64,000 nt of DNA from Coprinellus micaceus (lineage: Eukaryota > Basidiomycota > Agaricomycetes > Agaricales > Psathyrellaceae). Both the position numbers and the translations under genes were made by a program. The stretch covers positions 3,038,001 to 3,102,000 of the forward strand of contig OX596339.1 of assembly GCA_951394405.1 (NCBI GenBank). The letters are read 5' to 3'. The notes beneath the pieces were generated by a model that ran no database searches, was not told the origin of the DNA, and was given only the letters and a program-made list of their open reading frames with translations. Positions within the stretch are counted from its first letter, which is position 1, and every line of letters begins with the position of its first letter. This document shows positions 3,360-64,000 of the stretch, piece by piece.

Positions 3360-6227
3360 TTACTGAATGGAATTGGCTATCACTGGCGTATACATTCTAC
3401 CTGATATACCCCAGCTCGAGGTAGTACCCCGTTCCCTTGGGTAATCATTACAGTACGCGGTGGAAGCGGCGGGCTTGTCGTAATTGAGGCGTATCTGGCT
3501 GCTTTCCAGTATAAGAGTGAATGTGACCTCCATCCCACCGTGAAGAACTATCGCCACCCTCCTTGAGTTCGATGACATTCGAAGCAGGGCGCGAAATAAC
3601 TGAGGTGTAACAAAGTCCGGGTTTAGATACTNNNNNNNNNNNNNNNNNNNNNNNNNNNNNNNNNNNNNNNNNNNNNNNNNNNNNNNNNNNNNNNNNNNNN
3701 NNNNNNNNNNNNNNNNNNNNNNNNNNNNNNNNNNNNNNNNNNNNNNNNNNNNNNNNNNNNNNNNNNNNNNNNNNNNNNNNNNNNNNNNNNNNNNNNNNNN
3801 NNNNNNNNNNNNNNNNNNNNNNNNNNNNNNNGTCAGCAGCGGAAGGGCGACTCCATGAGGCATTGGGCGAGGTGCTGAGGGAGAACACACCTGAACCTTG
3901 AGCGTAGTCTCGGAACCAAGTCCCGTATCTCTCATCTCCGTCACTTCGTTTGGAAGGCAACCCAGCTTGAACGGGCAGGGCTGGCCATATCTGGAAACTG
4001 GATAGGCGGCTATGTTAGTGCTTGATAACGAGGTGGTTCGGGTTGTGACAGAATCATTCACCTTTTCATAGATTGCCTCCATCGAAGACTCAATGTGAGA
4101 CAGCAACAACGGGGTGCTGGTCTTCATGTCAAACGGTACCGTGGTGCTGCATGCTCTCCGACCATCCAAAAACTTTTGCGACTCGGAAAAGTGGGGCGGT
4201 AAAGGATGAGGCTCTCGTAGGAACTGTAGTAGACTTTTCTTGTCAATCCCAGCAGATGATTTGACAACGAGATAGAGGTGGCGAGCCCAGTGGTGAAAGT
4301 AATAGTCGAAAGGGATTAAATAATCGGGGCATGGATGGCTTGGACTGCAAAAGGTGCCAGTCATGAGAAGGGCAGCTACGCAATGTATAACCATCAACCA
4401 ATGCATAGAGGGATCCAATCGGGCCGGTATTTTCTTCTGGTATATTGACGTTAGGATTTCGGAGAAGTGAGGGGTGTTGTCATGCTTCTTCAAAAGCCAG
4501 AGGATAGGCTTCCACTCTTCTGGCGCCAGGTCCTGATGAAAAGGGTATGGGTGTTGACGGAGAGGGTCCGATTCGGCTGGTAAACTGATTGCACAGAAGT
4601 ATGCGTTAAAAGCAATTTGAAGGGCCGGCGTCGTCCAGTTGGCCTTTCGGGCTGTCGTGACCAGAAAGTCCGTCTGGGGCTTCGTGAGACCATTCAACGC
4701 GTCCCAATGACTTTTCCAGTATTCCTTAGCGTAATCAGTGACGCTGCAGCGCCCGGGACGGGGATTATACACAGGTAATAGTCGGAGACACCCATATGCC
4801 AGCTTTGTGCGTCCGCTGTCGCGCTCGGCCGGCGAGAAAACACCATGGGACCGGTCTTCGTCTCGCAAAAAGTCGCTTAGGGAGGTGTGGAACATGGTAA
4901 CGGGCGTAGTATCGTCGCCGGGAACGTGGATGATAGACTGAAGGGGGACGAGGGCGTGAACGATTTTGAACCCCGGGATTTCTAGAAGCTGACCAAGGTC
5001 GGAGATTGAGAGTGGGCTGTGGAGAAGGGCGATAGTGAAGATGATGTCGGAAAAATGGGGAATGCGCTCGCTGCGTCGGAATGTCTCCCTGTAAAGGCCG
5101 TCGAGTCCGGGGTTCATGTTGAGAGCGAGCTTGAATCGGTCCATCGGCGTCAGCCCATCATCCTGTGTACCATCTTGATTCAGGATGTATCTGAGCAACG
5201 CAGAGATGAAGACGAAAGACCCGTCGGCGTGCTCAACAAGCTGGTGGATGTCGTCGATGGGTGGCCAGTTTTTTCCGTATGCGCGAACGACACGGTTTTC
5301 CTTCGAGGCCTTCTGAAATGTAGATTGAACTAGACTGTTGATGTCATCTAGTGGTGGGTGATCCTGGAGATTCTCAATATGGACTTGATCTCTCTCAATT
5401 CGCGCCCGAATATGCTCTTCGATACGACTGGCAATTAAGAACCGAAGGGGGAAGTGGGGGTGTTGCTCGAAATGACGGAGGATGTTGTCGATAAGGGTAG
5501 CGACCTCATCGCGGTCCTCACACTCGTCGAGGCCATCTAAAATAAACAGAAACACTTCCTTCCGCTCGATAGATGTTCGGGATCGCTTCCCAAGTCGCAC
5601 CTTTTTCGGTCGATTGTCTTGCACGGTAGCGAATACTTCGTGAAGTGGTTGGAAAACCAGCCTCTGGAACTGCACCTCCAGTGATGCCCCTTGGAGCCCA
5701 AACAGCTTCTTCAAAGCGGCTTCAACGAGCGGGCGAGTCTCTGGGATCACATCAGCCATTTGGCTGGCGAGGGTCACTGCAAGCCTGTTTATCCTGCTCC
5801 GTTCTCCCGATCCTCGGAAAAAGAAGAAGCTCCCCAACAAAAGCCCCTTATCTTGAAACTCCTCTCCCATCGCTTGCAAGATAGCCGATTTTCCGCACCC
5901 AACTGACCCACAGAGCCAGAGGATGTGCTTGCCCCTTGGGGTTACCGGGGCAGAGGAAGCCCCAGAAGACCCAGGCATTGATTCATCGTCATTCCCCTCC
6001 CCACCTGAGAGCTCCTCATCGGAGTGAACCCAGGATCGTAGTCTCTGAAGCACGCCCTTCCGGGTACCTGGGAGGCAGCTTGAGTCGGGTGGCGATGTAC
6101 GACGATTACGTGTGTGGGATGCGTCTGAGATGGGGAGAAGGGAAGGAGGAAGCGCCTCTGATGAGTTCTGAGTTACGTGCTGAGTGATTGTACCTTCGGG
6201 TCGTGGCGAGATATGAGAAAGATCCAC
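3360..6227 (-). CDS. NACHT-domain NTPase (NLR-like), interrupted by an assembly gap
   Basis: Large P-loop NTPase of the NACHT type found in many copies in Agaricomycetes, where such proteins are thought to act as intracellular receptors in non-self recognition. After a Ser/Pro-rich N-terminus of about 95 residues comes Walker A (GSVGCGKSA), then a conserved FFF segment, Walker B (FLFILDGLDE), a sensor-like RFLIASR and a winged-helix-like region. No WD40 or ankyrin repeats are visible; the C-terminal part is of unknown fold. The open frame crosses a run of 200 Ns (3632-3831), so the last 90 or so codons may belong to a different frame or exon. The frame opens upstream of 6227 without an ATG. 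Short 5' exons probably lie between 6228 and 6420, where a donor at TATG/GTGAGC and an acceptor at CCCAG are visible, but I could not settle their phase. Confidence 0.8.
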   Translation of the reverse strand: MDLSHISPRPEGTITQHVTQNSSEALPPSLLPISDASHTRNRRTSPPDSSCLPGTRKGVLQRLRSWVHSDEELSGGEGNDDESMPGSSGASSAPVTPRGKHILWLCGSVGCGKSAILQAMGEEFQDKGLLLGSFFFFRGSGERSRINRLAVTLASQMADVIPETRPLVEAALKKLFGLQGASLEVQFQRLVFQPLHEVFATVQDNRPKKVRLGKRSRTSIERKEVFLFILDGLDECEDRDEVATLIDNILRHFEQHPHFPLRFLIASRIEEHIRARIERDQVHIENLQDHPPLDDINSLVQSTFQKASKENRVVRAYGKNWPPIDDIHQLVEHADGSFVFISALLRYILNQDGTQDDGLTPMDRFKLALNMNPGLDGLYRETFRRSERIPHFSDIIFTIALLHSPLSISDLGQLLEIPGFKIVHALVPLQSIIHVPGDDTTPVTMFHTSLSDFLRDEDRSHGVFSPAERDSGRTKLAYGCLRLLPVYNPRPGRCSVTDYAKEYWKSHWDALNGLTKPQTDFLVTTARKANWTTPALQIAFNAYFCAISLPAESDPLRQHPYPFHQDLAPEEWKPILWLLKKHDNTPHFSEILTSIYQKKIPARLDPSMHWLMVIHCVAALLMTGTFCSPSHPCPDYLIPFDYYFHHWARHLYLVVKSSAGIDKKSLLQFLREPHPLPPHFSESQKFLDGRRACSTTVPFDMKTSTPLLLSHIESSMEAIYEKVNDSVTTRTTSLSSTNIAAYPVSRYGQPCPFKLGCLPNEVTEMRDTGLGSETTLKVQVCSPSAPRPMPHGVALPLLXXXXXXXXXXXXXXXXXXXXXXXXXXXXXXXXXXXXXXXXXXXXXXXXXXXXXXXXXXXXXXXXXXXXYLNPDFVTPQLFRALLRMSSNSRRVAIVLHGGMEVTFTLILESSQIRLNYDKPAASTAYCNDYPRERGTTSSWGISGRMYTPVIANSIQ
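3632..3831. other. assembly gap (200 Ns)
   Basis: Exactly 200 N characters. The round number suggests a padded scaffold gap, so distances and reading frame across it are not reliable. Confidence 0.98.
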
Positions 6228-6329
6228 CTGGGAGAAGAATGTGTGCCTCGCTCACCATAGTTAGGGCCGAAATTGGCGTTGCACAGTTGAGTGATGCTGG
6301 GCGGGAATCCCTGGAAGTGGACACCTTCT

Positions 6330-9131: not shown

Positions 9132-10453
9132 ATGCCAGTCTCGCCACACGGTTTCGAAGCATGGATCGAAGTTGAGGGGAGGAGGTTAGAGGAGTTCAAG
9201 GTAGAACCCGAGGGAGATAAGATAGTATGTTGGGTCCCTTGCGAAGCTGGAAAGGTGTGTGAATGGACCAGCTTCACATTGCGCGGCTTTCCAAGTCTCT
9301 CGAATACGAATAGGAGTTCGCAGTCGGGTGTTCGATACCCTGGAACAAGGTGGCCACCACGAACCACACAATCCATGCCTACCTTGACGGAAAGGCAGCC
9401 AGCCTCCTCGCCAACGTAGTGCGCCACAATGCTTATTCGCTCGACTCGGCAACGCGCCTATTCAAGGAAGAACTTGTCAAAGGGGATGCCGCCGTCCGAG
9501 CCTTCCAGTTCGGAGCTTTGGAGCTTACCGGTACTGTCTCATTTTCGCATAACTCGCTATGGTGCGAGAAATACTGAGGAGTTTGATGTATTCCAAGATG
9601 ACGATGCACTGCTGAACGCTCCCGCCAAACAATTCGGGGAGATTACAGCGCACATCTCATCGGTGCAAGCCTTTGTCCCGATCCAGAATCACAATGTAGC
9701 CAACTTCAAGGAAGATTACCGAGCCCACGAGCGTTCCAAAAAGGGCGTTTCCCACTGCGTAAGGTACCCACCCTCCCTCTGCACACATACGCTGTGGCTG
9801 ATGTCGGAGCTAGGCTTGGGGAGGAGAAGCCCCGTCCCGGTGCAGCTCCAGCGCATAACAGAGCCGTTGGGCAGAAGAGGGAGTTCACATTCGTGTTCAA
9901 GTATCGTCAGATGGGTTTGTCATCTCTTTTCGCTGTGTGGCTTGCAGTCTTGACGGCCTCTCTGACGCAGATGTCCTCGTTGCCGATGGTATTGCTCCGC
10001 GGAAAGCCAAAAACGCTCGAGAGAACAGTGTTGCGTCGGGGTCTACCGCTCTACCACCAGAGGCCGGGCCATCGTCTCGTAAACGCAAGATGGCCGAGGT
10101 GAAGGAGGAAGACCAAGTTGCACAGAACTTGCTCGGCCCAACGGACGATGATATAGAGAGGATGGAGGTAGGCCCAGCTTCTACCACTACTAAACTTTCC
10201 CCCAAGCGAATCGTGACTCACTTACCCCTCTTTCCTCTGTCCTCAGAACGAATTGGCGGCTATGAAAGCGAAGAAAGCACAAGGCGGATCCAGTGGGAGT
10301 CAGCCACCAGCGAAGCGCGTCAAGCAGGAACCCAAGCGCGCGTTCGTTCCTGGGGAGATCATCGACCTCACGAACCTTCCTTCCAGTTCTGGCGCCCGAG
10401 TCAAGCAGGAGCCGAGGGCGTCATTCCATGGAGAGGTTATTGACCTCACCTAG
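9132..10453 (+). CDS. DUF7918 protein A with SUMO-motif tail
   Basis: Member of a basidiomycete family that I identify as DUF7918. Exons 9132-9254, 9314-9530, 9598-9763, 9814-9914, 9971-10167 and 10247-10453 give 336 residues with all phases consistent. The N-terminal domain starts PHGFEAWIEVEGRRLEEF, passes CWVPCEAGKEF and ends AFQFGALELTG. A second block holds YRAHERSKKGVSHCV and FTFVFKYRQM. The tail carries a basic KRKMAEVKEE stretch and then two copies of a module: VKQEP (psi-K-x-E sumoylation consensus) followed by GEIIDLT, and again VKQEP followed by GEVIDLT at the stop. The hydrophobic IIDLT/VIDLT fits a SUMO-interaction motif. Function is unknown; nuclear location is inferred. First of five tandem copies; the 217-nt second exon is shared with B, C and G. 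Confidence 0.85.
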
Positions 10454-10906
10454 GGCTGGCCGTTAGTACGTTGGCCCTAAGCCCACCGATTCCGCCTCTT
10501 TTTCTATCCTATCTATACCCGTGAGGACGTGCATCCTCACTTAATGCGACCTTCGTGTGTTACGAAGCTTACAGTAGGGTCTTTATATTGCCTTTGTACC
10601 GGTTTTATTTGTTAATGGCAGCTACTCGTTCGTGTGTGTACTCTCGGGGACCGCGCATATGTTCGCCTCGCTTTTCTACGAGGACAGAGCTCCAGGGGTT
10701 ACGAGATGGTGGTCCTCGCGCCGTTGTTGCCCTGAGGACGGAGTCCATCTGGCGGGTCGAATGTATTACCCGCCAAATACGTACAAGCTTCAGTAAGGTA
10801 CGTACGTTTTACACTCTGGCCGAAGTTTCTCGAAAGGTAAACGGCTGGAGCCTTCATTTCGTCGTCTTCAAACGATTTCTTTCTACAAACCAGCCCTAGA
10901 GCACGA
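10454..10906. other. intergenic spacer A-B
   Basis: About 450 bp between two tandem paralogues on the same strand. It should hold the terminator of A and the promoter of B. No element stands out. Confidence 0.5.
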
Positions 10907-12037
10907 ATGCCTGTTTCTGACGATGGAATTGAGGCGTGGATCGAAGTCGAGGGCATGAGACTGGAGGAATTCCAAGTGTACGTCGATGTCAGTGGGGGAG
11001 AGCCTCAAATCGTCTGTTGGGTTCCTTGCGAGCAGGGAAAGGTGAGTGCTATCCACGACGTGCCCTGGCCTTTTACGAACTCCCTGGACAGGAGTTCACC
11101 ATTGGTTGCTCTCTACCGCCCGGAAGAGTGAACGAAGCGAACCACACTGTGAAGGTATACCTGGATGGGAATCGCATTGGATTATCCAAAAACTCTTTCG
11201 ATAAGGACCCAGAGGAGACGGAAGACAGGGTGAGGTACTTCACAGGGGCGGTGGTGCGAGAGAAAAGAATCATTCGACCATTTCAGTTCGGGGCTCTTGA
11301 ACTGACTGGTATGTTCTTCTACTGGCGTGCTCCACTCAAAAGAAATACCGTACGCATGACTGACAAGCACTCTTCATGTATTCAAAGATGACGACTCGGC
11401 TCTGCAAGCTGGCGAAAGGCGCTTCGGCGAAGTAACGCTCGCGGTCTACTCAGTCGAGGGATGGACGGTCCTCGATGAAGGCAGGGCGAAGTTGCGCACG
11501 GTGAAGGACGATTATCGCGCGCATGAGCGTTCTAAGAAGGGCCTTAGCCACTGCGTCAAGTGAGTGTTCAGCATCTCTTAGGAACTTAAGTGGCTTAGCG
11601 CATTCCGTTTAGACTAGGTGAAGGGCAATCGCTCAGGACCAATCCGCTCTTCAAAGCTGTGGGCCAGAAGCTTCTGTGCACATTCGTCTTCAATTACAGG
11701 CACATGGGTGAGGAAGTCTGCTCCCTCTCGCCGCTCTCCCCAGTCTCTGAAATCACACCCTCTGCCAGAGACCCTTATTGCCAAAGGGATAGTGCCGTCA
11801 GCAAAGGATGCCGGTGACTCCAAGGCCCACGCCCAAGCCGAACGCAATGGGGACACTCTGAGCAAACTGAAACGCAGGTTGGAGGAGCTCGAGCGAGAAG
11901 AAGCAAAACTGGAGGATCCAGCGTACGATCCCGACAGTCTATCCGACAACAAGGCGCAACTAATGAAGGTAGACGCCACCCCAAAGCGGGTTAAGAGGGA
12001 GCCGCAGAGCATACCGCACGATCTCACTCACATTTGA
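10907..12037 (+). CDS. DUF7918 protein B, degenerate tail
   Basis: Exons 10907-11041, 11092-11308, 11388-11559, 11613-11707 and 11769-12037 give 295 residues. The N-terminal domain (DDGIEAWIEVEGMRLEEF, CWVPCEQGKEF, FQFGALELTG) and the second block (YRAHERSKKGLSHCVK, FVFNYRHM) match A closely. The last intron of A is absent, and the tail is shorter. After a predicted charged coiled-coil stretch (LKRRLEELEREEAKLE) comes KRVKREP, a psi-K-x-E match, but the SUMO-interaction motif has decayed to PHDLTHI. This copy may therefore be modified by SUMO but not bind it (inference). It lies 0.45 kb downstream of A and 0.43 kb upstream of C. Confidence 0.85.
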
Positions 12038-12464
12038 AGGATTCGTTCCCAGTAGCCCTTCCTTCGTCACCGAGGCCTCAAACCTCTGGATTTTTAACGA
12101 CTGAATTTTTGCTGTCTATTCACAATTTCAAAATCTCCTGTTCGGTTCACTCACCCCACGGCATTACTAGACGAGTGGGCTTGTGCTAATTAACGCGTTT
12201 CGACGCGCCGCTGCGCGAACAGCCCTGCCCTCAACCATCACGAGCCTGCCCTAAACTGTAATTTCGGACGTAATACCCCAGTCCTCACTGCTCTCTTGGC
12301 TGCCTTCCCTCAAACGCTCTCAAACTCCTCTCCTTTACTCACTTGCGTCTAGCTGCCTCCACTCTCTCCCAGCGGTACCTTTTATTTCCTCCCGTAATAG
12401 CGTGTCGAACCTTCGGACAACGAAAGCGACGGCCTGAGGACAATCGCAGACTCTGTAATTGAAC
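12038..12464. other. intergenic spacer B-C
   Basis: About 430 bp without a supported gene; presumed terminator of B and promoter of C. Confidence 0.5.
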
Positions 12465-13792
12465 ATGCCTCTATCGACGCTGGGGTACGAAGCTTGGATT
12501 GAGGTGGATGGAAATCGTGTGGACGAGTTCCAGGTTGAGGTCGGCGAGGAAGGCTCTAGGGTGACATGCTGGATCCCTTGCGAAGCCGACAAGGTGTGTT
12601 CCATGGTTGTACACCCTGCGCAATTTTGTTGACCGCCTTTGAGATGCGTAGGAGTTCACCATTTGCTGCTCCTTGCCCGTAGAGCGGCTGTCTGAAGATA
12701 GTCATATTATGGCTGCATCCCTGGACGGAGATTCGGTCACTGTCTACAGAAACCTCGTGCTCAAGCATGTGCGGGCACAAGTAAGCGAGATCAGCCGATT
12801 CTCTGGGGCTTACAACCGAGAGAAGGGACGCATTCGCCCTTTTCAGTTCGGACCTTTGGAATTGACTGGTAAGTTACGAAATATCAACGTCTCGGGGAAC
12901 GGAGAAATGAGATGTAATACTTTCCCTAGATGATGATTCTTGCCTCGGGACCATGGCGAAGCGTTATGGGGAGATCACGTTGACCCTACGCTTAGTTGAG
13001 ACACATGAACCCAGCGAGCCAGAAGCGCACCTCCCTCCGAACGACCCGAAAGATGAATACCGTGCTCACGAACGTTCCAAGAAAGGTCTATCCCATTGCG
13101 TTAGGTATGCCCAATTCTGAACTCGCTATATCTTCCTTTTAACATGACGCCCAATCGGTACGTATTTCAGGTACGGTGAAGAACGACCATGCCAGCCAAA
13201 CACTTACTACCGAGTCTCTGGATGGAAGAGTGTGTGTACCTTTGTTTTCAACTACCGTCACATGGGTGCGTGTCGAGTTGCAGGCAGGTAGCCCCCGCGC
13301 TGACACTGGGCGTGAAGACTTCCTTAGTGCGAAGGGTATCGCCCCACCGAAAGCCACCACCAGTAACCCCGGGCGTATTGCTGGCGGCAGTCGAAGCGCA
13401 GATGATGGCGCAGTGAGGAATTCACCAAGAATGAAACGCAAAGCCAACGATATTAAAGAGGAAGCGCAAGACGACAAGGTGGATGACCCAATCGATGACG
13501 AGATTCACGGGCTGAAGGTTGGCCATGCCAGGGAAATGCGATGCTGTTGTGCTCACTCGCTTCGCAGGAACGACTCGCTGCTCTTGAAGCAGAGAAGGCC
13601 AAACGGCCAGGCAGCGGCAGCGGGAGTCGTCCACTGAAGCGCGTCAAGCAAGAGGTCCCAAGCACATTAATTCACGGGGAGACGATCGACCTGACGACCG
13701 ACTCACCACCCCCAGGTGGAACTCGCAGTACCGTAAAGAGAGAGCAGCATATTACTCTCGTTCACGGCGAGGTTATTGACCTCACTCTTTGA
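12465..13792 (+). CDS. DUF7918 protein C with double SUMO-motif tail
   Basis: Exons 12465-12593, 12652-12868, 12930-13104, 13171-13265, 13318-13517 and 13568-13792 give 346 residues. The N-terminal domain reads GYEAWIEVDGNRVDEF, CWIPCEADKEF and FQFGPLELTG; the second block has YRAHERSKKGLSHCVR and CTFVFNYRHM, followed by DFLSAKGIAPP. The tail has basic RMKRKANDIKEE, an acidic DDEI segment, then KRVKQE with GETIDLT, and VKREQ with GEVIDLTL at the stop. This is the same two-module arrangement as in A and D. The whole architecture, intron phases and spacing show origin by tandem duplication. Confidence 0.87.
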
Positions 13793-14194
13793 TATTCCGC
13801 ACTCACTGATCGCTGGGTATATGCTTCCTCTCCCTCCCGGTTGTGGAAGGAGTCGTACGATATTAACCATACTAATCGTCGGTGATAGGCCGCTCTTCCA
13901 CTGACCCTCTTCTCGTACGGCAACCCCCATCCTTTAGCAGCGTCCGTAGCGATACCCATTACCTTTTTCATGTGCTCCACAATTGATAGCTGCCCTATAG
14001 TATTAGTACTGACACGCGTCGGAACGCGTGGAACCCGGCCCTAAATCTCATTACAGTCGGCGCTTAAAAGGGAGCGCCGTGCTTTCATTTGGTTTGGGTC
14101 TCCAGGAGCTTTGTCTCTCGCTTCTTCCACGTTGGCCTGAGAGTTACCTCGTGCACGAAACAGACGTCCAGAGCGCTTCCAATTACATTCCAGA
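13793..14194. other. intergenic spacer C-D
   Basis: About 400 bp with no supported gene. A short palindrome-like ACACGCGTCGGAACGCGTG is visible near 14012-14030; its meaning is unknown. Confidence 0.45.
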
Positions 14195-15449
14195 ATGCCC
14201 AAAACGCCGCGTGGATATGAAGCTTGGATTGAGGTCGAGGGGCAGCGCATACAGGAGTTCCATGTCGAGATGACTGAGGACAATGCTCGTGTGACGTGTT
14301 GGATTCCTTGTGAAGTCGGAAAGGTGAGTACTCCGCTTTGAAGAAATATTGGAACCGCCTCTAATGTGTCTATGATGGATAGGAATTTGCGATCGGTGCC
14401 TCAGTGCCCTCTGCGAGTGCCAGAGAAACGAACCATGCGTTCAGGATACACGTCGATGGTAGTAAAATTGGCCTTTTACGCAACACGACGAAAATCACTC
14501 GCAAGCTTCGCTCAAAACCTGTCACGAGGCTCTTTACAGGGGCGCTCCTGAAGGACAGGTCGACTCTTCGTCCGTTCCAATTTGGCGATTTGGAGTTAAC
14601 TGGTGTGTACGACGGGGCTGGTCGCATCAGTTCAACCCACATCCTGAGGCTTTTTAGACGACGAGGCATACCTTGCAGCAGCCTCAGAGAACTATGGACA
14701 ACTTGTTGTTGGCGTTCGCTCGGTCGATCGATTTGGACCGTCTAAGCCAAGGAAGGAGCCCAGGACGGTCCCCGGTGTTTTGAAAGAGGAACATCGCCGG
14801 ATCCATGAGCGCGCCAAGAAGGGTCTAACGCATTGTGTCAAGTTCGCCATGCATCAGCCCCCTGGTTTTTCATGTATTCCTAACATCTCTGCAGATTCGG
14901 AGACGAACGGTCGTGCAAGAAAACGTCCTCCGTCAAACTGATTGGAAGCAAAACGGAATGCACCTTTGTGTTTCGCTATCGACGCATCGGTACGCTGACT
15001 GTGCACTCTGGGCGTGGGTGAGAAGTCTCACCTTCCTCTCCGCAGACTATCTTGTCGCCCAAGGAATCGCCCCGCGATCTGCGATGGTGGTTCCCGAAAC
15101 CGGGGGTCGGTCAAAGGGGAAGCGCAAAGCGGGAGAAGTCGAAGAATGCATGGACGGGTCAGGCGGCCCCATAGACGACGAAATTCAGGTTCTAGAGGTG
15201 TGTCAAGTGATGCGATTCCGCGCGTTTACTAACCCAAGAGCGCAGGCCCGGTTAACTTCTCTTCGAGAGAACAAAACAAAAGGATTAGACAGAGAACCCC
15301 GCCCACCTAAGAGAGTCAAGCAGGAGTCTCAGGGCACCCTGATCTCTGGCGAAGTCATTGACCTGACAGTGCTACCCTTGGCGGGTCGCGTTAAGAGGGA
15401 ACCGAAGAGCGTCCTAGTTCAAGGAGAGATCATCGACCTCACTCTTTGA
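14195..15449 (+). CDS. DUF7918 protein D with double SUMO-motif tail
   Basis: Exons 14195-14323, 14383-14602, 14658-14841, 14895-14989, 15046-15197 and 15246-15449 give 327 residues. The N-terminal domain reads GYEAWIEVEGQRIQEF, CWIPCEVGKEF and FQFGDLELTG, with a second exon of 220 nt rather than 217 nt. The second block has HERAKKGLTHCVK and CTFVFRYRRI, then DYLVAQGIAP. The tail has GKRKAGEVEE, then KRVKQES with GEVIDLT, and VKREP with GEIIDLTL at the stop. The final intron position equals those of A and C. The tail spacing between the psi-K-x-E site and the hydrophobic core is about 10 residues in each module. Confidence 0.87.
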
Positions 15450-16076
15450 TCTCTCCTTTCAGCAACCACCCTACATACCTTACCAGCGCCCTGATCGTAT
15501 TTTCTGCCGACCTCACCATAATGGCAGTCTGGTTGGTGCTCACCTACATATACTAAAGTCTTCTTCCGACGAGCGAATTGGATTGAGTTCGCATTCGGTT
15601 GAGGAAAACCAACTATCAACTTCACTGATGGTTCCCTACACCTGGAGGAAATTTTGTATCCGCCCTCCCTTGTTTCCCAACGCGCTGAGGGCGTTGCTGA
15701 CGATGGTCTTGTCACTGGCAGCGTAACGGTTGTAAATTCCCATCAAGCTTATCAAGTGTCACCATCACAACATCACAAATAAGCAATACAGTCTCGCGGT
15801 CAGCCCTCGAGAATGGACCAGGCCGCTTTTGGCAGAGCCCAGCACCGCCTGTACGTGAATTGGAGTGGCGACGCCTTTCATGGGCGGCCACAAACAGCCC
15901 TTTCAATCGTAACTGGCTCCAGGATACCCCAGCACCTTCCCTTCCACTCCTTCACTACCCTCTTTCTCCCGTTTCTGCCTAGCCGACAGCGTTCGTCGTC
16001 TCCTAACGACGCCAACAATAGCGGGAAACCGTTATAACCTGGGCTAGCAAGCAAGCAGACCCTCCCCTTATCGAAG
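15450..16076. other. intergenic spacer D-E
   Basis: About 630 bp with no supported gene. Only short frames on both strands; presumed terminator of D and promoter of E. Confidence 0.5.
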
Positions 16077-17135
16077 ATGCTGCGAATGAACGGCGTCGAA
16101 GCATGGATCTCGGATGAAGGCAAGGCGCCACTCTCGGTGTATGGTGTGGAGAAGGATGCGACGACTGGTGTAATGTCCTGTTGGATTGCGTTTGACCCAG
16201 GGATGGTATGTTCAGGTCGTTATCTTCAGGACCCCCTTCATGCTCAATATACCATTCAGAACTTTGCCATACGGTGGCGGGATCTCGACAGCTCAGTGGA
16301 CATCGGGGGATTTGTGACCATTGATGGGGTCCAGTATGGGGGACGGCTAATAAAGTCAAAGAGCTACGCGCCCGCGGTCTTTTCCCGGATTCAAACCTCG
16401 TCGATGTATAGCAGACCGCTATCGTTCCCTCACCATTCCCCCGGTATGTGATCGTCATGAGGCCACTCGAAGCACAGCTACTCATTGAATTACTATCCCC
16501 CCCTGCAGCTCATCATGTTCGTACACCACTAGGCGGGACGATCACACTCGACATCCACGTCGTCTCCTCTGGCGACACACGGATACACGAAGGACTCTCG
16601 GACCTTGCCGCACAGAGGCTCTGCTGCTGCTCCCAAACGCCGCTCATGGCATCGCTTATTCCGTCGAGCTCCACCGAGGTCGCCAGTCTGGGCAAGATTG
16701 CGACTTTCATTTTCCGATACCGGACAATCAGTGCGTCACGCTCCGTCAACCTGTGCCGGAGTGACTAAAGCTCATCCCGCCGCAGACTTCCTTCGCGCGT
16801 ACGGGCTCGCCCCTGTCGAACGACCGCCCTACTCTGTCGTGTACAGGACACCCCAGATCGGTGACAAGCGGTCCGCGTCCAGTCTTGACTCTGACCCTGA
16901 CGACGAGGATGATGCTTCGTCGCCAAACAGTATGGTCCCCCTTTACGTGGCGACGCCCAAGGTGGGTTGTTCCCAATGCACCCTGCTACTGATGCTGACC
17001 TCCGTCTTGTTTCCCCTCCGTTTTCAGTCCATTGGGGCATCACATCAGTCCCGCCTACACTCGTCCTGGTCTCCAACAAATACCCCGAGTCTTGCGGAGA
17101 ATGGTCGACCTAATCCAAAACGCGCTCGAGTATGA
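16077..17135 (+). CDS. DUF7918 protein E, divergent, no SUMO-interaction tail
   Basis: Exons 16077-16205, 16260-16443, 16509-16730, 16786-16961 and 17028-17135 give 272 residues. The domain is closer to what I recall as the common form of the family: NGVEAWISDEGKAPL, CWIAFDPGM, FAIRWRD, GFVTIDGVQYGGR, then FIFRYRTI and FLRAYGLAP. The HERSKK block is replaced by a Cys-rich stretch, so exon 3 may contain an unrecognised intron. The C-terminus is Ser/Asp-rich and ends PNPKRARV, a basic nuclear-localisation-like end, with neither psi-K-x-E nor VIDLT. It is the outlier of the tandem array and may be the older form. Confidence 0.75.
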
Positions 17136-17845: not shown

Positions 17846-18547
17846 CTAGTGGTGGGAACCCAGCCGCTGCTCGGTTGCGGCCCTGACCTTGGTCCAGTCT
17901 CGACAGATATGCTTGACATCGTACCCACTCGCACCCGTCTCCTTCGCCCCCTCATGCTCCACCGTAATCGTCGGCTCAAGCGCAGTATCCCCATTGCACA
18001 GAAGGCCCTGGCGCAGAAGGTTCAAGCACCTATGCACCTGCCTGTCTTTGCACTTGTCCTCCTCCCATCCCGGATTCATGAAGATCTTGCGCAGTCGATT
18101 CAAGCAGTACAGCTGGTTGTACATGGAAGGTACCTTCGAGATAACCTCTTGGCTGAGGAGGCTGGCGTTCGTGATCGGTTCAAGCGAGAAGCCTTCAGGG
18201 AAGAGAGAGGTCCAGTCCGAGTCGGCGTCCATCCCGTAGTGCGAGTCTCTGACGGTTTCGAGCACGACGGGCTCAGCTGCGATGGGCAACTCGTCGGGAT
18301 ATGGAAGGCGTCGCGCTAAATCGGGAAGGTCGATCAATTTCAAGTCGCGCCAATGAAGTTTGGGGGCATAGAGGGTTGGAATCGGGGTCGGGTAGCGAAT
18401 TCTAGAAATGAAATACTGACTTCCCGACGCAGAGCGAACGTTCTTCGCAAAGCTGTAGTCCTGGCGTACGAGTGCGATGTTGATGGCGAGACATACCCCA
18501 AGGACGAGGGTCGTCAGCGAGAAAGAGAGTGATGGCCAGCCGGGCAT
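17846..18547 (-). CDS. UstYa-like (DUF3328) protein with lost motif histidines
   Basis: 233-residue protein, intronless from the ATG at 18547. An N-terminal membrane segment (LSFSLTTLVLGVCLAINIAL) is followed by a lumenal domain with family landmarks: LPYPDELPI, DSDWTSLFPEGF, the first core QLYCLNRLRK, the second core CLNLLRQGLLCNGD with ALEPT, and HICRDW near the C-terminus. UstYa proteins are membrane-anchored oxidases that cyclise or oxidise fungal peptides and bear two HxxHC motifs. Here the aligned positions read NQLYC and QVHRC, so the motif histidines are replaced at both sites while the surrounding fold is kept. It may be an inactive partner of the intact UstYa-like protein at 22 kb. 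Same strand as the repeat precursor; 0.7 kb separates them. Confidence 0.85.
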   Translation of the reverse strand: MPGWPSLSFSLTTLVLGVCLAINIALVRQDYSFAKNVRSASGSQYFISRIRYPTPIPTLYAPKLHWRDLKLIDLPDLARRLPYPDELPIAAEPVVLETVRDSHYGMDADSDWTSLFPEGFSLEPITNASLLSQEVISKVPSMYNQLYCLNRLRKIFMNPGWEEDKCKDRQVHRCLNLLRQGLLCNGDTALEPTITVEHEGAKETGASGYDVKHICRDWTKVRAATEQRLGSHH

Positions 18548-19243
18548 AGTAATGATGGGACAAAAGGTCGGGCACACCGCGAAGAGCCCGTATATGTGTA
18601 GCTAGCCTTTGCTGTGTGATCGTATCTTGCAATGGCCTAGTAAGCGCGTGGACTTCCCCGGAGAAGCCGATCCTTAACCGCATAGGCATCGATCCTCGAG
18701 GTCTCATGCACCTTCTTCAGGGACCGCAGGGAGCTCGCGTTCCTGATCCCAGTCGCCCCATCTCGGTTTAGAGAAGTTAGAATTTCTTCTCAACATCGGT
18801 TCGCGATGGGGAGGTTCTGGTTCACGAAGGATGGAACCCCAATGCTTATCAGTTCGCTCACACTCGGGCGCCACGCGCAAGAATTTCGCAATTCCCTTTG
18901 AACTCGCTGCGGTCACTGAGTGCCTTGCAGAATCCCATCTTTGGGAATTGCCTTTCGAATTCGAAGCGAATTCCAAGGAGAGCATCACTGTTCGGTAGAT
19001 AGAAGTACATACACTCTGTGGGTATACAGCCGAGTCCGAGATATACATAGATAGTAGGAATACACGAATAGCCGTCTGGGCGCTACAAGGAAGAGAAAGA
19101 AAGCCGATACGAGGAAGGGAGAAGGCGATGTCGGGAAGAAATCAGACTCTAGCTGATTCTCGTTCCAAGTGCGTGCCTACTTCGATAAAGTTCAGAAAGG
19201 GTGTGACGAACAACACTGATGAGAACGTACTGTGGGTGAGCGC
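18548..19243. other. intergenic with an unsupported minus-strand frame
   Basis: A 114-codon minus-strand frame (18704-19048) is present, but I see no motif, signal peptide or splice context that supports it. The segment should hold the terminator of the repeat precursor and the promoter of the UstYa-like gene. Confidence 0.4.
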
Positions 19244-20153
19244 TCACGAGTCAGCGGGGACGTCCTTGTTGGAAAAGACGCCGCCTCTGGCAGCCAGCCC
19301 GTGGTCAGCGGTCAAATCCTTGTTCGAGAAAACGCTTCCTCGGGGGTTCAAAGCCTGAACGACCCTGCTCGGAACTTTGACGTCGAGGGGAAGGTCCTTG
19401 TTCTTGAAGACACCCCCGGAAATCGATACAGTGTCGAGGGTCAGGTCCTTGTTGGAGAAGACGCCCCCCCTCTTAGACAAGACCCTATCGGCAGGAAGGT
19501 CCTTGTTGGAGAAGACGCTTCCCCTTGCAGCCAAGGCACTGTCTGCGGGAAGGTCCTTGTCGGAGAAGACGCTTCCTCTCACAGACAGGACCCTGTCTGC
19601 GGGCAGGTCCTTGTTTGAGAAGACGACGGCACGAGCCTCCTTGGCGTCGGCAGGTGAGTCCTTGTTGGAGAACACACTTCCTCTAGCGGACAAGGCACTA
19701 TCTGCGGGAAGGTCCTTGTCGGAGAAGACGCTCCCTCTCGCAGCCAGCGTACTGTCCGCAGGAAGGTCCTTGTCGGAGAAGACACTCCCCCTCGCAACCA
19801 ACGCGCTGTCCGCAGGAAGGTCCTTGTCTGAGAAGACGCTCCCTCTCGCAGCAAGCGCGCTGTCTGCAGGAAGGTCCTTGTTGGAGAAGACGCTGCCTCC
19901 TGCGCAGGGAAAGACGGTTAGTCCCTAAGTACCACTGCATGAGATGATGCTCTTACTGGCGTGAAGATCTGCGGGTAAATGCTAATATCAGGGAGAGGTT
20001 CTAAGAAAGGATAAGACCGGCTTGCGTACCTGGGGTCCACGAGGTGCTATCCCGAGTCACGGAGTTCTCCTCGGGAGAGAAGACCGGGAGACCCTGGGTC
20101 GCCTGAGCGAAGAGGAGCGCCAAGGCGATAACGTTCGCAAACTTGTTCAACAT
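19244..20153 (-). CDS. secreted repeat-containing precursor, candidate RiPP/KEP-type
   Basis: Exon 1 is 20030-20153 and exon 2 is 19244-19899 (minus), with a 130-nt intron; 259 residues. Exon 1 encodes a clear signal peptide (MLNKFANVIALALLFAQATQ) and a short linker. Exon 2 is twelve imperfect repeats of about 18 residues. The typical unit reads GSVFSDKDLPADSALAAR. The block V-F-[SK]-[ND]-K-D is invariant or nearly so, while the region before the terminal Arg varies. One unit ends SKR (a Kex2-type dibasic site); most end in a single Arg (AAR, VAR, SAR, SVR, NPR). Secreted tandem repeats beside UstYa-family genes match the architecture of dikaritin precursors such as UstA. There is no Tyr in the repeats, unlike the known ascomycete cores; Phe is the only aromatic. 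A repellent-like structural cell-wall peptide is the main alternative. Confidence 0.75.
19250..19899 (-). repeat. tandem 54-bp coding repeats, twelve units
   Basis: On the plus strand the unit contains GGTCCTTGT-(C/T)-GGAGAAGACG-type sequence every 54 bp, with units of 45-75 bp where the array is irregular near 19380-19420 and 19640. In coding sense it gives the F-S-(D/N)-K-D repeat. Near-identity of neighbouring units suggests unequal crossing-over or gene conversion. Confidence 0.9.
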
Positions 20154-21240
20154 GATTTTACGAGGAGGGAGTTTGATTGACTTTGTCTCTGGGGGTTCTT
20201 GAACCTAGCTTCTGCATTTATACCCCCCACTCAGAAGCGGGAAGAACTCGGTGAGGAGGAAGGCCGTGCAGAAATGGACTTCTTCGACGCTAGGATAGTG
20301 TCGCTGAGGGTGAAGCTGCTGAGCAATGATCAGGTTGCACGCGGTGCGATGATACGAGCCAGCTTCCTAAAGCCAGTTCGCAGAATGTGTTGATGTTCTA
20401 ACAAATGTAGAATATACTATTCCCTCTCCGCAGATCGAAGGAAGGCCCTAACCCAAGAAGCGACCGTGTGTGCCTCAACCTCGCTTCCTCCTTCTCGCTG
20501 GGCGCATTTCAGAACGATCCAGGATATGCTTTATGCTTTGTGGGGCGGAAGACCTACGGTATATCCCCCTTAGGTTTCGAGCACACCATTCGCGGATCTC
20601 ACGATTGTAGACGGTTGATACTGATCTAATTCTTAGGCGAGGGATACGAATGGTCAATCGCCGAAGTTTACCAGTTATAAGCGCAAGATCACTTCACCTT
20701 CGCGTCACTATCCTCCTAAAGGCATGCGTCAACCTGGTAGCTTGGACTGACCATCTGGTCCGTCGCTTCCTGCTGCACCAATAGAGTTCTGATAAGACAG
20801 GAATCAGGTAGCGGCTACAACTCTCCTCCCCGTTCCAAATAATGATTCCTATGAACCTCGGTGTCAGCGTGGTTCACTTCCCCCCTCATGACCGACACTT
20901 GGGGAAGGGAGCTCGACAATTGAATAGAAGGGCGTACATACATTTCATAGAGCCACGAAGTCTTATTTTGTGTGGCTCTGAGTTGCTCCTTTGATTGGGC
21001 TATCAGTCTCCTTTGCGATAACATGAGTTGGGGAAGCAGCTTTGTCTGACAGGGAACATGGATTCGAGGCGGTCTCCCCGTTACAATCGTCCGGTCGCAT
21101 TCAAAGTTCATGGAACCCTATCCACTGTTTACACACTCCCCGCAGAGCGTCCCGTTAGCATCGCGCTTCCTTTCCCATGCAAACATGTATCCAATCACCC
21201 AATCCTGTTTTCGTTCAATTCCCAAAAATGACACCAAATT
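20154..21240. other. intergenic, presumed promoter of the repeat precursor
   Basis: About 1.1 kb. A TATA-like sequence (TATAAATGCAGAAGC on the minus strand near 20209-20223) lies about 60 bp upstream of the precursor ATG. No gene is supported in the remainder; the 98-codon minus-strand frame at 20815-21111 shows no features. Confidence 0.45.
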
Positions 21241-21534
21241 TCAGGGGAAACACCTACAGGTCTTCGAAGGGAGGCCAAAATACGGGTCAGGGCGAGGAAG
21301 ACTCTCGACATCCCTGGCTTGCGTGATAGCAAAGAGTGTATCGGCTTGCATAGACAGGGTCTTGGCGAACGTTGCGACGTTGAGGACTAGCACCACTGCA
21401 AGAAAGATGTACAGAACGTAAGGCCTGATGTTGCTTGACCGCTCCTGCTGCTGGTGTTTCTCCACGGCGCTGGATGGTTGCCCAAGCAGGGTTTCGTCCT
21501 CTTGAGAGGAGAGGCGCTCGTAGGTGGGTTGCAT
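21241..21534 (-). CDS. short single-pass membrane protein ending in a PRPDP motif
   Basis: 97 residues from the ATG at 21534; an in-frame start at 21606 would add 24. A hydrophilic Gln/Ser-rich N-terminus is followed by one membrane segment (YVLYIFLAVVLVLNVATFA) and a short lumenal tail with SLPRPDPYFGLPS, then the stop. The organisation resembles the N-terminal third of UstYa-family proteins, but no lumenal catalytic domain follows: I searched the next 600 bp on this strand by eye and found none. It may be a genuine small companion protein, a truncated UstYa paralogue, or a first exon whose remainder I missed. It lies between the UstYa-like gene and the repeat precursor on the same strand. 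Confidence 0.6.
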   Translation of the reverse strand: MQPTYERLSSQEDETLLGQPSSAVEKHQQQERSSNIRPYVLYIFLAVVLVLNVATFAKTLSMQADTLFAITQARDVESLPRPDPYFGLPSKTCRCFP

Positions 21535-21989
21535 GCTCGTTTGAGGCGGATGGTGGAAGGAAAGATGTGCTGAAGAAGCGCTGTAAGTAATGGCAGGTGC
21601 GCCCATTCCAAATCGTGTCTATATGTTCCGACGTACCCGGTCTCACAGGTCCGCTGCGAGAACCTGGTTCTGTACTCAGGGTGAGGCCGCAGTCTATCCG
21701 CGACCCAGTTCGAATGACCAGTGAGCATTGATATCGTGGACCTGCTTCGATGGGAGAAGCGTGATACCGGTTATGGTATCAATCGGCAGAGCCCCGCGAA
21801 CCTATGGAAGAAAGCAAGAATCAGATCTCTACCAGGGCGAGAATGGGGAATGCGAGCTCACCGGATATGGCCGCAACGATCGTGTAGTCCCAGCCCAATC
21901 ACGGATTTTCTGCAGACGGGGAAAATGACTAAGTTGAGGAGAAGAGGATACAGTTCGACTACTGTACAGTGAGAGTCGCGAAAGGTTCT

Positions 21990-22635
21990 TCAAGGTCCAG
22001 ATACGACATGGCTAAGCCACTCTGCGTTATCACGATAGTTGTCCCCGACGAATCCGTGAATCTGAGCCCAATCCCTGCATACATGTGGGACTCCCGGAGG
22101 AGCAGGTTTTGGATTCTCGCAAGTCAGCTCCTCCACGATGCGGGGCTCAAGTGTCCGGTCCGCACCGCAAAGAACGCCCATCCTGACGTAGTTGTAGCAG
22201 TGGTTTGCATGTCCAACGACTGCCGGGGTGGGCTTCACTCCCTTTTTCGATTGGGTAAGGTCGTACCGAAGAAAGTTGAGGCAGTGAAGCTGGTGGTACA
22301 TCGATACCGCGTATGGACGGTCGTCCTGTGGGGTGGGGAGCTTGATCCACCCACTGCCAGCACTGACGCTCTCCCACTGGGAGACTGCGTGGACGTCATA
22401 GAGCTCCGTTGGCTCGAATACCATGACGGCGTCTTGCACCCGAAGTGGGATGTCACGGGGGAACCTGACGCGGTCGACCAGGAAGGCTTTCAGGAACGAG
22501 TTGTCAGAGGTTACCCCAGTCGTTATTTTGTTCTCACTTACAGTTCATCGCCTTGTCGAGAGTGCCTATGAAGGCTACATTCAGGAGAAAGCGTGCCAAA
22601 TTGCACGTCGTGAGGATGGCGATGGCCACCAGCAT
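21990..22635 (-). CDS. UstYa-like (DUF3328) oxidase with both HxxHC motifs
   Basis: Exons 22542-22635 and 21990-22486 (minus) joined across a 55-nt GTAAGT...AAAG intron give 196 residues. Exon 1 encodes the membrane anchor (MLVAIAILTTCNLARFLLNV). Exon 2 starts with FPRDIPLRVQDAVMVFEPTE, then WESVSAGSGWIKLP, the first motif YHQLHCLNFLRY, the second motif GHANHCYNYVRMGVLCGAD, TLEPR, and HVCRDW near the end. Both HxxHC sites are intact. In ascomycetes, such proteins catalyse ether cyclisation of ustiloxin, phomopsin and asperipin precursors and other oxidations of peptides. The acceptor is the only one I found that keeps the frame; an additional upstream exon is possible. Its position upstream of a secreted repeat precursor on the same strand supports a peptide substrate (inference). 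Confidence 0.85.
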
Positions 22636-23256
22636 TACGCTATGAAGCAGGGACTGGGTATGATTAGTGAACAGGTGACAATGGAGTCGAGTGTGTATCC
22701 ACCTACTTCATGCAGCTTCATCGCTGTCCTATGGTCGCAATGGTTCGTTGAGTGCTTGAGCGTATTAGACCTAGAGAAGAGATGATATCAATGAGTAACC
22801 TAACACTATACCCAAATCTTGGGAAGAACCACACCAAGTCACAAAGAGAGGCGGAAATTCACAGCTCTATTCAAGGCACTATTGTTCGCCGTCACGGAGA
22901 AACAAAGCGTCCACTCATCATCTGAACGGTGATAAATTGGTGATAAAGCTTTATAGGGAAACTGCGGTAAATCGCCATCTGCCAAAGCGTGCGATGGCTG
23001 AGCACAATGCCGTTCTGCGGTCATGAGATTCGTGACGATCGAATTCTCGAGAAGAGCAGGAGGGCGGAGGCAACTCAGGGCCCCTGGCCCATCAGGACCA
23101 CGATAGCACTCTCCATCACGAAAGTCAGGGCACGCCAAGTTCTGTGAACAGATGGATCTATCCTTGTCGAGCTCCATTCCGACATTGTGACCTGAGAGTA
23201 TCGTTCAAAAAGAAGCTCAATGAATTGAGAAAGCGAATCGACTCACCCTGTCCAAG
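22636..23256. other. divergent promoter region, UstYa-like gene / proline iminopeptidase
   Basis: About 620 bp between two divergently transcribed genes. It could carry shared regulation. A minus-strand frame at 22839-23177 has no recognisable features. Confidence 0.45.
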
Positions 23257-24333
23257 ATGCTTCCTCGGGTCGCCTCAGCTGTGATTCTCATCTTGAGCCT
23301 CTTCAAGCATGCAACTATGGGAGCTAGTGTCACCGAGGGGAGGGTCGACTTCAGAGTCCCTGCGCTTCCCCGAGTATCCCAGACTTGGTACAAGATCATC
23401 GGAGACCTGAAACCAGGTGTCCGCCCACTCATCGCCTTGCACGGAGGTCCTGGCGTCAACTCGGCCTATCTCGAGATCCTCTCCGATATCACCAAAGGCC
23501 GCCCGGGACCCCTCATCGTCTACGACCAAATCGGCAATGGGAAATCCACCCACTTCCCCGAGAAGATTGGGGATACGAACTTTTGGACGGAGGGTCTCTT
23601 CCTCGGCGAGCTCAACAACCTCATAACCAAGCTGAACATCAAGGAATACGACCTGTTCGGCCATTCATGGGGTGGGATGCTGGGTGCCCGCCACGCCACG
23701 CTGAACCCGCCGGGCCTGAAGCATCTCGTCCTCATGTCCAGCCCCGCGTCAATGGCCCTGTGGGTCCAGTCGGTGAACGGATTGAGAGCCAAGCTTCCGG
23801 CGGAGATTCGAAGGGTGTTGGATGAGCACGAAAGGAATGGAACGACGGACAGTCCAGAGTACCAGGAGGCCGTCGATTTCTTCTATTCGCTACACCTCAT
23901 CACGATAAACCCCATCCCCGACGCGATCGCGGAGGGCTTCGCCACAATTGCAAGTGATCCTACGGTATACCTGACTATGTGAGTGCACATCGTTTCGAAC
24001 CAGACCCACACTCACCTTGCTCGCTTCAGGAACGGTCCAAACGAGTTCAGCATCACTGGTTCGCTGAGGAACTGGACGATCATTAACGACATTCCCAAGA
24101 TCCAAGTACCCACTTTAGTCACGAATGGGGCGAAGGACGAAGCACAGGATATCGTCGTGCTGCCATACGTGAACAAGCTACCCCACGGAAAATGGGTCAA
24201 ATTCTTCGTGAGCCTTCCTACAAATTCATCCTCCTTCCGCAGGCACTGATAGATTTTCCAGAACTCTGCTCACATGGCCCACTACGAAGAACGCACCAAG
24301 TTCATGAAGACTGTGGCAAATTTCTTGTATTGA
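23257..24333 (+). CDS. secreted proline iminopeptidase-like alpha/beta hydrolase (peptidase S33)
   Basis: Exons 23257-23978, 24030-24207 and 24262-24333 give 323 residues. The first 23 or so residues are a likely signal peptide (VASAVILILSLFKHATMGAS). Family S33 landmarks are ALHGGPGVNSAYLEIL (oxyanion HGGPG), YDQIGNGKS, the nucleophile elbow GHSWGG, the acid Asp in TNGAKDEAQD, and the catalytic His in NSAHMAHYEE in the last exon. S33 enzymes release N-terminal proline or act on small peptides and amides. The start is the first ATG of the frame. The gene faces away from the UstYa-like gene at 22 kb with 0.6 kb between, which invites a role in trimming a proline-containing peptide (inference). 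Such hydrolases are common in these fungi, so the neighbourhood may be chance. Confidence 0.85.
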
Positions 24334-25483
24334 AGCTCTACGTCCATAGGATCTGGTCCACTGGGCGTACCATGGCCCATTATAGCATTTGTTTAGTCCC
24401 TAGCGTAGTAAGATGAATAATTTTGGTTCCCACTCGAGCAAGACGTGATCTACTTAGGGGGAAGACACACCATATGGACCGGTGTGATTCATCCACACAT
24501 CGTTTTCGCTGAGGTTTGCTAAGTATTGGACAATCGGCAAAGGTGGAAGGGAGCTCAGAGAGAGTCGCGCCGTTCTTGCAAGTGGACCCCAAGTTAGGGG
24601 TGGTCCATCTGGACCTTTGAAACTCTCACGGTCGATCATGGACCCGACCGACACCACAATGGGCGGCTGTGGCTTGGACTCAAGTTCAACCACTACACTC
24701 CTCTCACCTGTTCAAACATAGAAGAAGGCCAATTTCTTCAAACTCTCTATCAGTTGCGCACATCAAAGATGAGAGAAGTTCCGACTCTGCTCAGGCTCAA
24801 GAAGGCAGTTTGTTACTACAACAGAGTGGTTGGTGGACACACTCTTCCACGAAATGCAGGTGGATAGAGACGGATATCAAGGAATTGTATTCCAGAGAGC
24901 GACATTCTGAGCGGCATGCGTGATGGCCCTGGGTTGCCTGGGACCGGCCGATAGCCGTCCCAAAATGTGGGAGGCTGATGCACACGGAGAGCGGATTCTC
25001 ATCGAGGCTTCGTCGCTCGATGGATCAGTATCTACGAGAGCCCACCGAGCCTATTCTCCAGCGCTTCGAACTGCGGTAAGAATCTGCTGGGATACCTACT
25101 ATCAAGCAGGTCCGATCCGATGAGCGCCTGAGCGTGCCCACCTACCTGGAACGGCGAACAGGCGCCCGGATAAGTGTGGCGACGCTCCTCCAAGAAGGCA
25201 AGCGCTATTAGAGCGCCACTTGGGAAGACCTATCCAAACGGTAACAAATCTAGACTGATATGCTCACATGAGATGTCAGGCACCCGCTTCTATTCCCTGG
25301 CTGGGTTTGCACGGCCAAACCAAGCTGCTTCGAGATACGTACCACCACAAGCTCCCCTCGTTCTTCGCCGTTCTATTAAAGCGAAGAAGTATATCCATCC
25401 CAAGGACAGCCAAGGGGTTTTGCGGATTCTTGTTCTCTCTTCTTTCTTCCGACCTGCACTGATCTTTTTGCTGCGCTGCAATC
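24334..25483. other. no supported gene
   Basis: About 1.15 kb. Short frames at 24669-24923 and 25174-25626 lack recognisable features; the second overlaps the start of the membrane-protein gene in another frame. The last 150 bp should be the promoter of that gene. Confidence 0.45.
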
Positions 25484-26834
25484 ATGTCGGACCCCTTAGC
25501 TGGAGAAAAGACTGGCCGCCCTCAGCTGCTCCCAGAGTATGCTCCCCCGGGGCTGGGCCCTGTCGACTTCTGGATGGAGAGGTCAAATCTTGCCGGCATC
25601 ATGATTGCCTGCGTCGCTTACGGTGAGGACTTAACGCCCGTGCCTATCCTCATTCCCACAAACATGCTAAATCTTATACTCCATCGGCGCTTTAGGCATC
25701 CTGTTCACCCTCTTCGTCCAATGCGTCTACCTACTTCGCAACTCGGTAGTCGCGCGGACGAAGCAGGCGAAGATGCTGAGCATCTATTCCTGCGTGCTGT
25801 GGGTTCTGGCTACGCTGGGAATCGCAGGAAATATCAAGTTCATCCAGATGACCTACATCGACTATCGGAACTACCCTGGCGGACCCAACGCGTTCACGTT
25901 TGACTTCTACACCTTGCCAATCAATATGCTGGGACTGGTGGTGTACGTCCTCATGAACTGGGCCGCCGATGGCCTACTCGTAAGTTCATTGCGCTTCTAG
26001 CGGCTAGGCTTTGAGCTGAAACGGACCCCTTTACCAGCTCTACCGGTTCATGGTCATCTACAACTTCAAGTGGGTTTTGCTAGTCTTCCCCGGCATCATG
26101 TACCTGGCCATTCTCGGTAGGTCGGCACCCCCCGATATTGCAGCCACTGCAGATCACTCATCATGATCTGCAACGCCTGACAGGTCTCTCTGTCGCAATG
26201 GTCGTGTTCACCATGAACCCCGCGATTGGATTCTGGGCGCCAATCACCATCAACATTGGTATTGCATACTGGTCGACGTCTATCGCACTCAACGTCCTCC
26301 TCACTGCCTCCATTGCCGGCCGCCTCATGTTCATGCGCAGGAAGATCCGTAAACTGCTCGGTTCCAAGCACGACTCGCCCTACACCTCCGTCATCGCCAT
26401 GCTCGTCGAGTCAGCCTCGCTCTACACGGCGTGGGCGCTTGTCTTCATGGTTTGCTACGCGAAAGGCGACATCTTCCAGAATGTCGTTCTTCCTTCTTTG
26501 GGTCACATCCAGGCAAGTAACATCGAGTTTGAAGCTATGACCGCCGTGCTAATCGCGCTCATGACGTGAATAGGTCATCGCACCCTTGCTCATCATCTTC
26601 CGTTTCGCGCAAGGCAAGGCCTGGACGAGCAACACCTCCACAGGTATGCTCAGCGGCAATCCCTCTTCCACACTTCCATCCTTCGAAGCCCGAAAGGGTC
26701 CCTTGTCGGCATCGAACATCTCGCGTACAGGCGCCAATTCGTTCCCTCTTACCACTCTCACCGACTCGACGGCCAATCTCGAGACCGACCACGAGAAGAC
26801 CGTTTACAGCAATCACTCAGGCAAGGCGTATTGA
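25484..26834 (+). CDS. seven-transmembrane protein, basidiomycete type
   Basis: Exons 25484-25622, 25696-25979, 26038-26116, 26184-26512 and 26574-26834 give 363 residues with consistent phases. Seven hydrophobic segments lie between about residues 35 and 280: for example IMIACVAYGILFTLFVQCVY, MLSIYSCVLWVLATLGIAGN, LPINMLGLVVYVLMNW and VIAMLVESASLYTAWALVF. The C-terminal 75 residues are Ser/Thr-rich and hydrophilic, as in receptors or sensors with a cytoplasmic tail. The fourth intron uses a GC donor (CAG/GCAAGT) and TAG acceptor: the conserved-looking join HIQ/VIAPLL is only in frame this way. The architecture is that of the numerous serpentine proteins of Agaricomycetes with unknown ligands; I do not assign a family number. 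Confidence 0.85.
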
Positions 26835-63958: not shown

Positions 63959-64000
63959 ATAGTGGCCAAGGCCCGACTCAATATGCCTTATACCTCTTCT

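Follow-up and report, generated by a model that had tools for sequence, protein, structure and literature searches.

The systems closest to the locus described here are the dikaritins, the Kex2-processed repeat proteins (KEPs) of Agaricomycetes, and the copper enzymes of the DUF3328 (UstYa) family. Dikaritin cores are separated by dibasic Kex2 sites (PMC9769878), and an older definition, later relaxed, placed a tyrosinase gene in the cluster (PMC12048977); it also named a methyltransferase gene and a transporter or peptidase gene. The characterised dikaritins and UstYa peptide products named in two reviews are ascomycete (PMC9233826, PMC12048977); in one of them, victorin, ring closure involves the side chain of a Phe and a Leu (PMC9233826). 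An earlier note on the DNA analyzed here described such loci as ascomycete, which holds for characterised compounds but not computationally: 103 of 1680 basidiomycete KEPs were reported in 2020 to have a DUF3328 gene within 15 genes, with Tyr in 65.6% of the repeats from KEP genes that have DUF3328 genes nearby (PMC7329392), and 16 UstYa-like genes are described in Pleurotus (PMC8893723). The pairing of a KEP with DUF3328 in basidiomycetes is thus not new. We analyzed a 64,000-nucleotide stretch of the Coprinellus micaceus genome (the window; C6:3038001-3102000 in a genome of 17 contigs and 50.3 Mb), in which positions 17846-24333 hold four minus-strand genes, coding for UstYa A, a repeat precursor, a short one-helix protein, and UstYa B, and a plus-strand hydrolase gene facing them. 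On balance, we think it somewhat more likely than not that the repeat precursor of this locus gives rise to a few related peptides that are secreted and oxidised by UstYa.

The gene models of the locus are listed below. Splice sites were picked by eye (for UstYa B also by homolog fit), and every signal peptide or membrane helix named in this text is likewise a visual call.

17846-18547, minus strand: UstYa A, intronless, 233 aa, assigned by its PF11807 match (55.4 bits) and alignments.
19244-20153, minus strand: repeat precursor, 259 aa, with exon 1 at 20030-20153, a 130-nt intron at 19900-20029, and exon 2 at 19244-19899.
21241-21534, minus strand: short protein, modelled as an open frame of 97 aa; the 3′ end is uncertain and may be spliced.
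21990-22721, minus strand: UstYa B, 207 aa, with two modelled introns (22654-22706 and 22487-22541).
23257-24333, plus strand: S33-like alpha/beta-hydrolase (proline-iminopeptidase-like), two introns, assigned by Pfam; the gene end was read by eye.

As the earlier note had claimed, the precursor is built of twelve tandem repeats. Tandem Repeats Finder (TRF) reported an array with a period of 54, 8.5 copies, and a score of 443, where the best score elsewhere in the window is 79, and the 259-residue protein consists of a signal-peptide-like start, a short leader, and then 12 units with the consensus GSVFSNKDLPADSALAAR. The conserved core reads [G][S]VFS[N/D]KDLPAD. Eight units have exactly 18 residues and a terminal Arg. 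Across these, the proportion of nonsynonymous differences (pN) was 0.064 and that of synonymous differences (pS) 0.535 in the 12 core codons (ratio 0.12), against a pN of 0.321 and a pS of 0.571 in the five codons of the spacer that precede Arg (ratio 0.56); the core pN/pS across all 12 units was 0.21. Constraint is thus stronger on the core than on the spacer, with the spacer's Leu and Arg as exceptions. The repeat region contains 12 Phe, one His (in a spacer), and no Tyr, Trp, or Cys, and Phe is the sole aromatic residue of the core. The computed monoisotopic masses are 1817.9272 Da for the unit GSVFSNKDLPADSALAAR (1661.8261 without Arg), 1818.9112 for the unit GSVFSDKDLPADSALAAR (1662.8101 without Arg), and 1248.5986 and 1249.5826 for the cores GSVFSNKDLPAD and GSVFSDKDLPAD, respectively. 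A candidate substrate with computed masses is now defined for UstYa genes in Agaricomycetes. A 189-aa open frame on the plus strand (19359-19925) lies opposite the array and is probably a side effect of the repeat codons.

Arg ends 10 of the 11 junctions between units; the pattern LxxR is found in 9 and a dibasic site (KR) in 1. Nine of the 11 junctions thus keep both the P4 Leu and the P1 Arg, and the other spacer positions vary. The P4 Leu occurs in nine of the ten Arg junctions, a count reached in 0 of 20,000 within-spacer shuffles, though this is not a probability, as the copies are related. LxxR is described as an expanded Kex2 motif that favours Leu at P4 and tolerates variation at P2 (PMC8528282), and it is likewise used in PMC10942635; two matches to the proprotein-convertase P-domain are present in the genome. 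If the LxxR junctions are used, surveys based on dibasic sites would undercount such precursors. A Ste13-type pheromone precursor was also considered but is disfavoured, since the units begin with GS, GG, or AV and no XA or XP dipeptides follow the predicted cleavage site.

Both UstYa assignments of the earlier note were borne out, as UstYa A (9.8e-15, 55.4 bits) and the open frame of the last exon of UstYa B (2.9e-17, 63.7 bits) exceed the curated PF11807 cut-off of 25 bits. The two-motif core ascribed to both, on the other hand, belongs to UstYa B only. This protein has a hydrophobic stretch at its N-terminus and the canonical copper motif HxxHC...HxxHC, as HQLHC and HANHC, with four His invariant across its 14 homologs (five of named source: one from Coprinellus, one from Ephemerocybe, two from Candolleomyces, and the lowest from Crepidotus). 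Ephemerocybe angulata belongs to the Psathyrellaceae (Agaricales). The motifs of UstYa A read NQLYC and QVHRC, with none of the four His; both motif Cys and CRDW are kept. The genome contains at least six PF11807 matches, arranged as three close pairs. By alignment, UstYa B and the members C (contig C4) and E (C6:175 kb) are canonical, with 4 His each, and their partners are degenerate, with 0 of 4 His in A, 2 of 4 in D (C4), and 0 of 4 in F (C6:175 kb). Hence, all three pairs found consist of one canonical and one degenerate member. A single origin of the degenerate proteins was proposed, but the UstYa tree gives no resolution on it, as one shared His loss and three separate losses cannot be told apart. 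Chance adjacency to the precursor is unlikely, because PF11807 genes flank it on both sides and the genome yielded only six matches, grouped as three close pairs.

The DUF3328 enzyme CctR carries two coppers per monomer, assigned to HxxHC(x)nHxxHC; Ala mutants of its motif His and Cys are inactive, and it dimerises via a membrane helix, a coiled coil, and disulfides (PMC12435403). By analogy, the pairing suggests that UstYa A and UstYa B may form an active/inactive heterodimer. This offers a testable idea for why UstYa genes are paired, namely an active copper enzyme with a ligand-less partner.

The short protein has a hydrophilic N-terminus, one hydrophobic helix, and the motif LPRPDPYFGLP near its C-terminus. 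Its three relatives (at 65-81%, own window entry excluded) match until the GLP after LPRPDPY and then diverge, so a splice site may lie after this GLP. The one other genomic match (C6:180521-180808) is weak (E 0.014, 35%), ends in ELPRPDPLYGVKYPG, and has the UstYa pair at C6:175 kb as a neighbour ~5 kb away. The contigs of the UstYa B relatives P0001 and P0004 and of the short-protein relatives P0016 and P0018 measure 5261 and 7821 bases, each couple agreeing in length, from which we infer that the two genes share a contig in two cases. The one-helix gene that sits between the two C4 UstYa genes was considered, by eye, as a counterpart of the short protein but was dropped, as no alignment was found; as a query, its protein matches only itself in the genome.

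The hydrolase, termed a secreted S33 peptidase in the earlier note, has a signal-peptide-like start and the nucleophile motif GHSWGG. It matches Abhydrolase_1 (8.9e-13) and falls just under the cut-off of the S33 model (25.3 vs 27 bits). The S33-like family has 8 matches in the genome: besides that of the window, one adjoins the C4 pair, at 44% identity, and the other six are located at further sites on C6. Five S33-like hydrolase matches lie within 22 kb at C6:3239865-3261880, where no UstYa match is present.

In the explanation that we favour, the repeat protein would enter the secretory pathway, and a Kex2-like convertase would cut after the Arg of the LxxR junctions, freeing up to 12 similar peptides with the core given above. 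Membrane-bound UstYa B, as a copper enzyme, might then oxidise these peptides, by a cross-link, a hydroxylation, or a similar change at Phe, Leu, or other carbons. UstYa A, which has the scaffold residues of the family without the copper-binding His, would be its dimer partner. The short membrane protein could serve this pathway as its dedicated accessory, and trimming of the product may fall to the S33-like peptidase. A bolder version, which we consider rather unlikely in its full form, is a basidiomycete module for ribosomally synthesized and post-translationally modified peptides (RiPPs) that combines LxxR release with non-Tyr oxidation by an active UstYa and a His-less pseudoenzyme joined as an obligate heterodimer, helped by the dedicated one-helix LPRPDP protein, with the same pairing at the other two UstYa loci.

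Several observations weigh against secreted, oxidised peptides from this precursor. Tyr is present in 0 of 12 units. One junction lacks Arg, and the P2 position of the Arg junctions is mostly Ala, which is absent from the five best alternatives of PMC8528282, so Kex2 cleavage may be poor. Of 7996 candidates scored in the protein collection, none matched the precursor at E ≤ 10, in a search that did not list the precursor itself and thus had no positive control; the linkage in relatives that the earlier note proposed to look for reaches UstYa B and the short protein but not the precursor, and it is read from equal contig sizes. No precursor-like sequence was found elsewhere in the genome, nor was a repeat precursor found near the other two UstYa pairs (C4:1047000-1068900, C6:170000-189800). 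On the loci around UstYa pairs and S33 paralogs, TRF gave no rows in L012, L013, L018, L019, L020, and L021 and two short arrays only in L022 (scores 57 and 50), and a protein-level repeat screen gave zero matches in nine loci (L012-L015, L018-L022). Six of the eight S33 matches are on C6 away from any UstYa match, and none was found at the C6:175 kb UstYa pair. The AlphaFold models have a mean predicted local distance difference test score (pLDDT) of 52.3 and 49.1, too poor for testing the dimer. Apart from these points, a sequence comparison gave no PDB relatives of P0005 at E ≤ 10.

Other accounts of the same genes were considered. The precursor might, like other KEPs of Agaricomycetes, give peptides that are linear and carry no modification, with the UstYa genes acting on something else. 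The peptides detected from Coprinopsis, Lentinula, and Pleurotus KEPs are linear and minimally modified (PMC9769878), the cores here lack both Tyr and Trp, and most basidiomycete KEPs have no nearby DUF3328 gene (103 of 1680 have one; PMC7329392); however, this precursor sits between two same-strand UstYa genes in a genome where only six such matches were found in 50 Mb, and we regard this account as quite unlikely. Alternatively, the repeat protein could stay intact as a secreted, repellent-like wall or surface protein whose repeats are structural. The near absence of dibasic sites (1 of 11 junctions) and a P2 Ala not favoured by Kex2 (PMC8528282) would fit, but constraint falls on the core and not on the spacer, bar the L and R of LxxR, and UstYa genes stand on both sides, which leaves an intact protein most improbable. 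Compatible with either oxidised or linear peptides is a different status for UstYa A, as a metal-free or differently metallated enzyme or as a gene that is drifting and on its way to being lost. A and F have lost every motif His and D has kept 2 of 4, and the tree does not distinguish one loss from three; yet UstYa A has a full open frame, 55 Pfam bits, and its motif Cys and CRDW, and a degenerate partner is present in all three pairs. Such a status is possible, although we lean against it. Oxidised peptides from the repeat precursor remain our preferred explanation.

Other genes of the window were also considered, and the cluster borders are provisional. Frames of at least 85 aa at 7-17.8 and 24.3-46 kb were scanned in 28 of 132 cases, and outside the core locus 2 of the 46 scanned window frames passed the Pfam cut-off; they are listed below with a third gene that lies near the locus:

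833-1807: Abhydrolase_1 frame, Pfam above cut-off.
3363-6251, minus strand: large NPHP3_N/NACHT frame, Pfam above cut-off, with a 200-base N run at 3632-3831.
25463-26569, plus strand: gene for a multi-helix membrane protein, seven-transmembrane (7TM)-like by eye, partial model; its cluster membership is uncertain.

The 7TM-like gene, listed here for its position, had no Pfam match above cut-off. Its best genomic paralog adjoins the C4 UstYa pair, but this linkage is weaker, because the family is larger (18 exon-level matches in the genome, the window's two included). At the C4 locus (L012, C4:1053000-1062900), the UstYa pair is bordered by a cytochrome P450 gene (C4:1053945-1054466) and a 7TM-like gene in one direction and by an S33-like gene in the other, and the one-helix gene sits between the UstYa genes; this is possibly another biosynthetic cluster. 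That P450 gene is the one found beside the C4 pair; the P450 search scored 92 of 304 candidates and gave 111 matches, of which none lies in the window. Tyrosinase (PF00264) gave 34 exon-level matches genome-wide and 0 on contig C6, and no methyltransferase gene was found among the 46 scanned window open frames, a set without the smaller frames and spliced models.

Elsewhere in the window, several frames at 9859-16451 with a GIAPxKA/GIAPRSA-like motif look like tandem relatives, and the frame at 10933-11388 has a DUF7918 match below threshold. A perfect inverted repeat (51926-53194 and 62732-64000; 1269 nt, 100%) has arms 9537 nt apart and reaches the window end, beyond which it may continue. 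An open frame of 207 aa lies in each arm, and the printed 150 residues are identical between the arms.

Like the ustiloxin, phomopsin, asperipin-2a, and victorin loci, the present locus combines DUF3328/UstYa genes and a peptidase gene with a neighbouring repeat precursor that has a secretory start. A precursor with a leader and repeated cores, its signal peptide read by eye, lies next to the DUF3328 genes, and the place of the transporter or peptidase gene is taken by the S33-like hydrolase at 23257-24333, whose S33 score is just under the cut-off. Phe is present in the core as in victorin, here as the only aromatic residue. Unlike dikaritin loci, this one is basidiomycete, has LxxR rather than dibasic junctions (dibasic in 1 of 11), has cores without Tyr, has no tyrosinase match on its contig, includes one UstYa without copper ligands, and adds a short membrane protein. 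The "dikaritin-like" of the earlier note therefore describes the repeat precursor beside UstYa genes but not the junctions, the core residues, the missing tyrosinase, or UstYa A.

The likeness to Agaricomycetes KEPs lies in the signal-peptide-like start, the near-identical tandem units, and the mostly Arg-ended spacers; the differences are the dibasic sites, found in one junction and not between the repeats generally, and the UstYa genes that adjoin the precursor. UstYa B resembles CctR and other DUF3328 copper enzymes in its HxxHC(x)nHxxHC motif and N-terminal hydrophobic stretch, but CctR is a homodimer, whereas here canonical and His-less paralogs are encoded a few kb apart. Neither repeat precursors with LxxR junctions nor UstYa pairs of one active and one inactive member were found described in the literature consulted, most subscription papers lying outside its scope. 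The locus would work like a dikaritin or KEP system but misses defining features of both, and we do not class it as a dikaritin; its unusual parts are the LxxR junctions and the active/inactive pairing.

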